Assembly (NCBI GenBank): GCA_021296215.1
Contig: JAGWBA010000020.1
Location: forward strand, 1-34,925
Source of the DNA: Flavobacteriales bacterium
GTDB taxonomy: Bacteria; Bacteroidota; Bacteroidia; Flavobacteriales; ECT2AJA-044
Reading direction: 5' to 3'
DNA: 34,925 nt
Shown in pieces: positions 18,146 to 20,804 of the stretch (positions are counted from its first letter, which is position 1; the number at the start of each line of letters is the position of its first letter). Both the position numbers and the translations under genes were made by a program. The notes under the pieces were generated by a model. The model ran no database searches. It saw only the letters and a list, made by a program, of their open reading frames with translations, and was not told where the DNA came from.

Positions 18146-18624
18146 GAAGCATGCAACAATGGCTCGACGAATACAGTATGAGCCATCAAAATTCGACCAA
18201 CAAACTGATTCATTGGATTTGTGTTCCTCTGATTTTCTGGAGTATCTTGGGGTTGCTTTCCGGATTGCCTTCGGCACGATTAACATCGCTCGTGGCGGAG
18301 CCGTTTCAACCCTATGTTCATTGGGGTACTGCCCTCGTGCTGGTCGGGCTCATTTTTTACCTTCGCCTCAGTACCGCTATGTTTTTGGGGGTTGCTGCGT
18401 TTTCGTCTTTTTGCCTGTACGTGATCAAGTGGCTCAATCTTAACGTCGAAATGGCGGTTTGGCAAGTATCGTTGATCGTATTCGTATTGGCTTGGATCGG
18501 GCAATTCATCGGCCATAAGATCGAAGGTGCCAAACCCAGCTTTTTCAAGGAAGTGCAGTTCTTGTTAATAGGGCCTGCTTGGTTGATCGCGTTCATTTAT
18601 AAGAGTCTGGGGATCAAGTATTGA
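18142..18624 (+). CDS. DUF962 / Mpo1-like membrane protein
   Basis: A 160-residue membrane protein of the DUF962 family, named after yeast Mpo1 (YGL010w), an Fe(II)-dependent dioxygenase that alpha-oxidises 2-hydroxy fatty acids. Family marks are the N-terminal WLDEYSMSHQNSTNKLIHW with two His residues, and the C-terminal WIGQFIGHKIEGAKPSFFKE followed by FLLIGPAWLIAF. Four or so TM helices are predicted. Activity on lipids in bacteria is inferred only. It is the last gene of the DUF547-acylase operon, with a 4-base ATGA overlap with the gene before. A second heptamer/hairpin element follows. Confidence 0.87.
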   Translation: MRSMQQWLDEYSMSHQNSTNKLIHWICVPLIFWSILGLLSGLPSARLTSLVAEPFQPYVHWGTALVLVGLIFYLRLSTAMFLGVAAFSSFCLYVIKWLNLNVEMAVWQVSLIVFVLAWIGQFIGHKIEGAKPSFFKEVQFLLIGPAWLIAFIYKSLGIKY

Positions 18625-18669: not shown

Positions 18670-18715
18670 AGTCCAGAACCTAGAGCAAACTAAGAGCTCA
18701 ACACTAAGACCTAAG
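18670..18715. repeat. Degenerate 7-base tandem repeat array (locus B)
   Basis: Units read AGTCCAG, AACCTAG, then after a 4-base offset AACTAAG, AGCTCAA, CACTAAG and ACCTAAG. They lie in the gap between the DUF962 and recQ genes, 45 bases after the DUF962 stop. Unit length and sequence match loci A and C. Confidence 0.72.
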
Positions 18716-18873: not shown

Positions 18874-20775
18874 ATGCCGAGTAATCAAAAGTCACCGCAG
18901 GAAGTCCTCCAAGAGTATTGGGGTTATCCAAATTTCCGGGAGCCACAAGGCGCTATTATCGAATCCGTTCTAAGCGGTCGCGACACCCTTGCCCTTATGC
19001 CTACGGGCGGGGGAAAATCACTTTGCTTTCAAGTGCCGACCCTTACGAGGAGCGGAATGACCCTGGTCATCAGTCCACTCATTGCACTGATGAATGATCA
19101 GGTGAAAAATTTGAATGACCGAGGCATCCGCGCTGTGGCACTCACCTCGGAGCTCGATGCAAGACAGGTCGATATTGCTCTCGAAAATTGCATGTCGGGC
19201 GCCGTACCTTTTTTATACCTGTCTCCCGAGCGGCTTCGGACCGAAATAGTCAGAATGCGCTTGCCTCAAATGAAGATCACTATGATCGCCGTAGACGAAG
19301 CGCATTGTATTAGTGAATGGGGGTATGATTTCAGGCCGTCGTATCGATTGATCCGTGAAGTGCGCGATGCTCTACCCAACATACCCGTTTTGGCCCTTAC
19401 GGCATCCGCGACACCAGAAGTCGTTGACGATATTCAAGAACAGCTCGATTTCAAATCACCCCACGTCATACGCAAGAGTTTCGGACGTCCAAACCTCGCA
19501 TATAGGGTTTGGCCTACCAGAGATAAATACGGAGCTGTCACGGCTCTCTTGAAAAAACATTCGGGCGCCGGAGTCATCTATGTCCGCAATCGAAGAAAAA
19601 CGCAGGAAATCGCTTCATTCCTACAACGTCGCGGAATTCCTGCAACGTACTACCATGCAGGACTGGACGCAATGGAGAAGCAATCGAGGCAAGATTCATG
19701 GACGCGAAACGATACGCGTGTGATCGTGGCAACGAATGCCTTTGGAATGGGCATCGATAAACCCGACGTTCGTTGGGTGCTACACTGGGAGCCTGCGGAC
19801 TGTATCGAAAGCTACTTTCAAGAAGCCGGTCGAGCAGGACGTGATGGCAATGAAGCCGTATCGTATGTCTTGTACGACCAACGTGACGGCCAAGAGCTTC
19901 ACGAGCGATATGTAGAGCGGTTGGTGACCGAAAGAGAGGTGCATCGGCATTACGAAGCGCTGATGAACTACTTGCACTTGCCCATTGGCAGCGGTGCAGA
20001 CCAGAGCTACGATATTGACTTAAAAGAGTTCTCGAAACACTACGACTTCGATTTGTACGGGGTATATCAGACCATAGACCTGCTTGAGAAAGACGGGTTC
20101 TGGCATTTGAGTGATGGATACAAGGAGCGATCCTTTTTGCGGATCACCGTTGATCACCGATCCCTTTATGAAACCAGGTTGAAGAATAGCCCGGTCGACC
20201 GTCTCATTCAACTACTGCTTAGGAGTCATCCGGGAATCACCGAAGAGGGGTCGCATATCGACGAGAATCGCATGGCCGCTCGGCTCGGTGTAAGCACGGC
20301 TGCCATCCGCAAAGAGCTCGAGATAGGCAACAAGGAGCAGCGATGGGAATACAAGGGGCGACCCGAAGCAGACCGTCTTTGGATGATGATCCCACGGCAA
20401 GACACCCGACATTTGCCTTGGAATCGAAAGGCGCTTTCGGAACTGAGAAAGCGGAAGGAAGAACGCATTGGATCAATGATCGATTATCTAGAAAGCCAAG
20501 AAGGATGTAGAAATCAACTCCTTCTCTCCTACTTCGGGGAAAAAGAAACCGAACCTTGCGGAAAATGCGACCTTTGTCTGAAATCGGAGGATCTGGACGA
20601 AACAGTACTCTTGGATTATTTAAAGGCTGCTACACGGGAATGGAATGATGTAATGGCCGAGTTCCCAGGAATGGACGAAGAAATAAGTCAGTGGCTTCGA
20701 GTACAAGTGGAATCCGGAATGGTTCGCTGGGAAGGCCCGGAACTGGTGGTACTGAAAACTGGCTCCTCGAACTAA
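18874..20775 (+). CDS. recQ: RecQ family ATP-dependent DNA helicase
   Basis: A 633-residue superfamily 2 3'-to-5' DNA helicase for recombination and fork repair. Motif 0 (YWGYPNFREPQGAIIESVL) precedes Walker A MPTGGGKS near residue 43, DEAH at about 142 and the helicase C motifs FGMGIDKPDVRWV and QEAGRAGRDG. The RecQ zinc domain carries Cys near 545 (GCRNQLL) and the CGKCDLC cluster near 562-568. A winged-helix segment lies between the helicase core and the zinc cysteines in this order as read, and no HRDC domain is evident at the C terminus. The stop codon TAA at 20773-20775 is part of the first unit of a 7-base repeat array, so the true ancestral C terminus may have been altered. Confidence 0.92.
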   Translation: MPSNQKSPQEVLQEYWGYPNFREPQGAIIESVLSGRDTLALMPTGGGKSLCFQVPTLTRSGMTLVISPLIALMNDQVKNLNDRGIRAVALTSELDARQVDIALENCMSGAVPFLYLSPERLRTEIVRMRLPQMKITMIAVDEAHCISEWGYDFRPSYRLIREVRDALPNIPVLALTASATPEVVDDIQEQLDFKSPHVIRKSFGRPNLAYRVWPTRDKYGAVTALLKKHSGAGVIYVRNRRKTQEIASFLQRRGIPATYYHAGLDAMEKQSRQDSWTRNDTRVIVATNAFGMGIDKPDVRWVLHWEPADCIESYFQEAGRAGRDGNEAVSYVLYDQRDGQELHERYVERLVTEREVHRHYEALMNYLHLPIGSGADQSYDIDLKEFSKHYDFDLYGVYQTIDLLEKDGFWHLSDGYKERSFLRITVDHRSLYETRLKNSPVDRLIQLLLRSHPGITEEGSHIDENRMAARLGVSTAAIRKELEIGNKEQRWEYKGRPEADRLWMMIPRQDTRHLPWNRKALSELRKRKEERIGSMIDYLESQEGCRNQLLLSYFGEKETEPCGKCDLCLKSEDLDETVLLDYLKAATREWNDVMAEFPGMDEEISQWLRVQVESGMVRWEGPELVVLKTGSSN

Positions 20776-20804
20776 GAACTCAAAACTAAGAACTAAGAAC
20801 TTTG
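20770..20804. repeat. Perfect-phase 7-base tandem repeat array (locus C)
   Basis: Five contiguous units without phase shift: AACTAAG, AACTCAA, AACTAAG, AACTAAG and AACTTTG. The recQ stop (TAA, 20773-20775) is in unit one and the fmt start (TTG, 20802-20804) is in unit five. No hairpin series is attached here. Confidence 0.85.

Follow-up and report, generated by a model that had tools for sequence, protein, structure and literature searches.

A dispersed, polar heptamer repeat occupies the recQ-fmt spacer of a Flavobacteriales genome

Heptamer repeats in other bacteria

The short tandemly repeated repetitive (STRR) sequences of cyanobacteria are heptanucleotide tandem repeats that occur at many loci per genome. 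An array of the same general kind, five 7-base units with an AACT core, fills the spacer between recQ and fmt in a 34,925-nucleotide stretch of DNA from a Flavobacteriales bacterium (the window, meaning the whole stretch that was analysed); as in the class of dispersed heptamers, its tandem 7-base units are found at many loci of the genome. Its likeness to the STRR sequences and to the long simple sequence repeats (LSSR) of prokaryotes described in PMC4679880 is one of description only, all being heptanucleotide tandem repeats at many loci.

The sole close match for AACT-type heptamers found in a search of open-access papers is that same paper (MacGregor 2015, PMC4679880), which describes TAACTGA direct repeats in Beggiatoaceae, Cyanobacteria and five Bacteroidetes. 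Thirteen sets are there said to overlap the stop codon of the upstream gene while being aimed at the downstream gene, and some close relatives to be without the repeats. Features in common with the present element are the 7-base unit, the AACT core, two to six units per set, the admixture of variant heptamers, a mostly intergenic location, polarity and closeness to gene boundaries. The units differ, being AACTAAG, AACTCAA and AACTTTG here rather than exact TAACTGA, and the present copies lie mostly at gene 3' ends, whereas those of the orange Guaymas genome are described as mostly pointing at start codons (PMC4679880). The forward placement just upstream of start codons that characterises TAACTGA fits the recQ-fmt copy but not the family as a whole (42 sites at 3' ends against 11 at 5' ends), and, unlike in TAACTGA, variant units come back in the same 25-base order.

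The GGGNATC heptamers of Xanthomonas and Nostoc (Rehm 2015, PMC4692102) are likewise dispersed, made of few units, enriched in non-coding DNA and located within 50 bp of gene boundaries. They share the outward polarity as well, being downstream of genes on the sense strand and upstream on the antisense strand, but they are G-rich and quadruplex-forming (PMC4692102), whereas the present units contain neither GG nor a G-run. The minisatellite-MITE BrickBuilt of Porphyromonas gingivalis (PMC4596501) is also an intergenic tandem repeat in a Bacteroidetes genome, with 19 copies; unlike the present array, it has a 23-base unit, a leader, a tail and inverted ends, and lies 49-591 nt from genes. The present element is best placed with the known dispersed heptamers, and differs from the TAACTGA kind by its units and its preference for 3' ends. 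If further genomes show the same polarity and flush placement, heptamer repeats would supply genes with new stop codons and C-terminal tails, and the outward orientation would unite the present, Beggiatoaceae and Xanthomonas repeats under one rule without an accepted mechanism.

The recQ-fmt array and its dispersed family

The initial annotation had five units filling the recQ-fmt gap, with the TAA of recQ in the first and the TTG of fmt in the fifth, and this is confirmed in the sequence (Table 1). The order of units is AACTAAG-AACTCAA-AACTAAG-AACTAAG-AACTTTG, and the 26-nt spacer is array throughout. With at most one mismatch, AACTNNNAACTNNNAACT has three matches in the window, all of them within this array, against 0.14 expected, and none of 100 shuffled windows reached three; TRF likewise ranks it as the top-scoring tandem array in the window. 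The zinc-binding domain of the RecQ product is present by profile match. The second copy in the window is flush with neither of its neighbouring genes, which are 63 and 161 bp away.

Table 1. Positions in the window of the array, the adjoining genes and codons, and the second element copy
Feature	Position	Strand	Basis
Five-unit AACTNNN heptamer array that takes up the whole recQ-fmt spacer	20770..20804	+	Sequence; TRF period 7, score 52; chance count
The 25-base core of the dispersed element, without mismatch: AACTAAGAACTCAAAACTAAGAACT	20770..20794	+	Genome core search; top-ranked in the profile search (E 3.4e-7)
TAA stop codon of recQ, in unit 1	20773..20775	+	Sequence; AAC TAG at this position in the array-less sister
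Start codon of fmt (TTG), made up of the three final bases of unit 5; also in the array-less sister	20802..20804	+	Alignment to the Pfam and TIGR00460 profiles begins at residue 1
recQ, RecQ-family helicase, 633 aa	18874..20775	+	TIGR00614 396.7 bits (cut-off 219.8); Pfam DEAD, Helicase_C, RecQ_Zn_bind
fmt, methionyl-tRNA formyltransferase, 310 aa	20802..21734	+	TIGR00460 258.2 bits (cut-off 201.5)
Second, degenerate element copy, lying between recQ and an ORF with its end at 18624	18688..18712	+	3 mismatches to the core; profile E 2.2e-5

Across the genome that holds the window (G000), three consecutive AACTNNN units gave 38 overlapping matches and the reversed control none; the two-unit form gave 66 against 3 in controls. 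The 25-base core, AACTAAG AACTCAA AACTAAG AACT, occurs at 38 places with at most three mismatches, seven of them exact, again with a reversed control of 0. A profile built from 29 of these 38 places found 82 places up to E = 10 and puts the number of copies at about 60; 61 sites with E up to 0.05 were analysed. None of the 61 is inside a called gene and 15 overlap a gene edge. The recQ-fmt array is therefore neither a chance occurrence nor unique. The order of unit variants, AAG-CAA-AAG, is repeated at many sites, and on that ground separate slippage events at the individual sites were rejected as a complete explanation. After removal of the first 45 bp of each spacer, the spacers of G000 still have a lag-7 periodicity of 0.296 (0.261 when shuffled, sd 0.007), which suggests a repeat process wider than the 25-base core. 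For a period-8 version of the motif there were 2 matches and 12 in the reversed control, indicating that G000 also holds period-8 arrays of another motif; period-8 arrays AACTATCC are seen at C11:44596 and C106:416.

Polarity and placement at gene boundaries

Gene ends were taken from open reading frames and codon scores, not from annotation, and an array was called flush when its right end, the side to which the AACT arrow points, was at most 20 bp from a gene boundary, with 12 bp of overlap allowed. The right-hand end lies within 20 bp of a boundary at 49 of the 61 sites and the left-hand end at 3 of 47, with median distances to the gene of 6 and 132 bp. Random placement in the same gaps would give 10.3 of 47 where 36 were observed, a value reached in none of 20,000 trials. 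The claim that the array sits exactly at gene ends is accordingly true of recQ-fmt and, when profile sites are set against gene calls, general across the genome. Within 30 bp, 42 sites are at gene 3' ends and 11 at 5' ends; the recQ-fmt copy, whose arrow points toward fmt, belongs to the latter group and occupies its whole spacer. Outward from the gene the repeat reads AGTTCTTAGTT and its like, whichever way the gene runs, so the rule is one of DNA and not of mRNA. When the arrays are extended by near-matching units, the stop codon is inside the array at 23 of the 42 three-prime sites, and in 7 of 24 genes examined the last residues, -SS, -LSS or -VLSS, are encoded by the array.

The right-hand gene is more than 30 bp away at eight of the 61 sites, including the second copy of the window; one of these misfits, C30:1350, arises because a broken gene end was missed by gene calling. 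At about 1240-1375 of the same contig (locus L076) there is a fragment of about 22 codons (..GAMLEYLEGKELPGIAAVLSS*) with the array on its 3' side, separate from the full gene beside C27:691. We take the fragment to resemble the 3' end of a phosphoglycerate kinase gene, and the array here seems to have been duplicated along with a gene end. At C8:106083/106176, C69:6864/7032 and C28:37760/37935, pairs of elements point outward at both 3' ends of convergent genes around unrelated spacer DNA, in the manner of terminal inverted repeats.

In the wider order, the three-unit pattern has at least one match in 39 of 60 genomes; since several of them have frequent matches to the reversed pattern too, only some are clearly enriched. 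Two enriched genomes from other families carry other heptamers, and the right-hand gene is the nearer one in 14 of 16 scorable arrays (18 examined). AACT-core arrays could be regarded as a general polar gene-boundary feature of the order, with a directional synthesis of seven nucleotides at a time extending toward a gene until coding sequence is reached and continually rewriting C-termini and spacers, but we consider this improbable.

The sister genome and the origin of the array

The only genome of the same genus compared (G001) has an Fmt 75% identical to that of G000 and a recQ-fmt junction without the array, AACTAG-CGCA-TTGAGAGTAG (...AAC TAG CGCA TTG AGA), so that the gap is 4 nt against 26 nt in G000. 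The TTG start is common to both genomes, with no in-frame ATG, GTG or TTG between it and the preceding in-frame stop in either, and recQ ends in both with an Asn-stop in the letters AACTA. The initial annotation had raised the possibility that the array replaced a native ATG, which is not borne out, since array-less G001 has the same TTG; its converse expectation, an array-less relative with TTG and the same recQ C terminus, agrees with G001 in the TTG and the final Asn-stop but not in the residues before them (...VLKTGSSN in G000, ...VVNQEKN in G001). Among 30 genomes of the order surveyed for the fmt start, out of 40 with a match, ATG is upstream in 25, so the codon at the TTG position is internal there; ATG is at this codon in 3 and TTG in 2, namely G000 and G001. 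A wider scan of contigs with the two Fmt proteins found no relative beyond 56% identity besides this pair; the named Fmt relatives in it suggest that the host belongs to the Bacteroidetes, probably the Flavobacteriales. Its 80 loci (73 with ATG at the position, 5 with ATG upstream, 2 unscored) were left unused because one of its two patterns, MR[IV]VFMGT, favours ATG.

The fmt TTG is most likely an old coding triplet that became the start before the species split. Judged from these alignments, either TTG was the start in the ancestor of G000 and G001 or it arose twice; in both cases the array is needless as an explanation and would not have replaced an fmt ATG. The same probably holds for the recQ stop, which would be ancestral as well. 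Locally, the clear difference is the longer gap, a visible change of spacing and not of the start codon. For gene calling this advises caution, as a start or stop codon within a repeat need not originate from the repeat.

Other sites were compared in the same way. G001 orthologues were found for 22 of 24 array-bordering 3' ends, and none of the 22 has an array, by eye, in the 72 nt after its stop; with a single sister genome, loss in G001 and gain in G000 look alike. In 10 of the 22 the two proteins stop at the same residue of the alignment; in 12 the end is extended, shortened or has residues replaced, part of which may be ordinary divergence. The next homologous block was found at 15 of 23 sites (recQ-fmt included), gene order is kept there, and the idea that arrays mark gene-order breakpoints was rejected on this count. 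The gap is longer in G000 at 14 of the 15 comparable sites, the exception being a C16 site (831 vs 857 bp); the C62 entry in this comparison is the neighbouring C62:6098 array. In G001 the two-unit pattern has three overlapping matches at two places, with 2 control matches. One of its arrays, upstream of an ABC-transporter-like gene, is at the site orthologous to C75:4665 of G000 (gene identity and orthology by eye), so some arrays are older than the split.

We propose, with a probability of about 0.7, that the recQ-fmt array represents one member of a family of polar, dispersed heptamer elements, which spread or expanded in spacers until selection halted them once no further codon could be spared, the fmt TTG and the recQ stop being already in place. 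Once present in spacer DNA, whether by spreading or by expansion, the element would be stopped there by purifying selection on coding sequence, because units like AACTAAG carry stop codons whatever the frame: with a unit length of 7, which 3 does not divide, tandem AACTAAG brings stops into all three frames and a gene cannot read through it. An element halted in this way would often hold the stop codon and sometimes the last few codons. Selection against gene invasion explains the halt at boundaries and does not by itself explain which end is favoured. Between recQ and fmt, the array probably grew, or was retained, in a spacer where the AACTA stop and the TTG were present beforehand. Gain or loss of units would here alter the spacing only and neither reading frame; the likely effect is a gap that measures 26 nt rather than 4, with a possible loosening of the translational coupling between recQ and fmt.

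An unlikely alternative is that both species inherited the array from their ancestor and that it decayed in G001, where AACTAGC at recQ would be a remnant unit, and that the codons may have evolved beside the older array. Both the resemblance of AACTAGC to one unit and the array kept in G001 opposite C75:4665 speak for it, but the other 22 stops of G001 are followed by no visible remnant, so that wholesale loss would be needed. We think it rather improbable that the array is a functional gene-boundary element, that is, a DNA or RNA binding site kept by selection for translation control, transcript ends or nucleoid organisation. The strong polarity, the closeness to gene boundaries, the AAG-CAA-AAG order at many sites and the same polarity of other heptamers in two other families would all suit such an element, and translational control has been proposed for TAACTGA repeats near start codons (MacGregor 2015, PMC4679880). 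Absence from all 22 orthologous sites of G001, with its very few matches in total, argues against it, and the split between 3' and 5' ends fits no single mRNA-level role. The RNA around the recQ-fmt copy is of ordinary structure (z -0.41), and the promoter and terminator scan found nothing at the array; neither these two analyses nor the G001 orthologues gave a sign of selection as a regulator.

It is improbable that a small mobile element (MITE) entered short intergenic gaps and that the arrays are its terminal inverted repeats. Outward-pointing arrays at both ends of some gaps (C8, C69, C28:37760 and 37935) and the mostly much shorter gaps of G001 are what a MITE would predict, but inverted pairs are found at some sites only and their interiors are generally unshared: beyond an element of about 25-40 bp the spacers have little in common, with three longer shared pieces, most sites have a single array, and the recQ-fmt spacer consists of the array alone. 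It is highly improbable that a lineage-specific insertion replaced a native stop and ATG by bringing in both codons, the stop of recQ and the TTG of fmt, since array-less G001 has the TTG and a recQ ending in AACTAG, even though both codons are in array units and arrays elsewhere hold the stop with 2-4 terminal residues such as -VLSS.

Two spacers near contig ends deserve mention. Past the array at contig position 219 of C110 (locus L086), a 7-base register continues by eye with another core (GGCCACT GGCCCAT GGCAGTG AGCCGTG GGCTCTA ...), which suggests a spacer of degenerate heptads with a changing motif. L086 and L027 (C52), near two contig ends, have 76 bp in common at 98.7% identity, which may mark the end of an insertion sequence at which the assembly broke.
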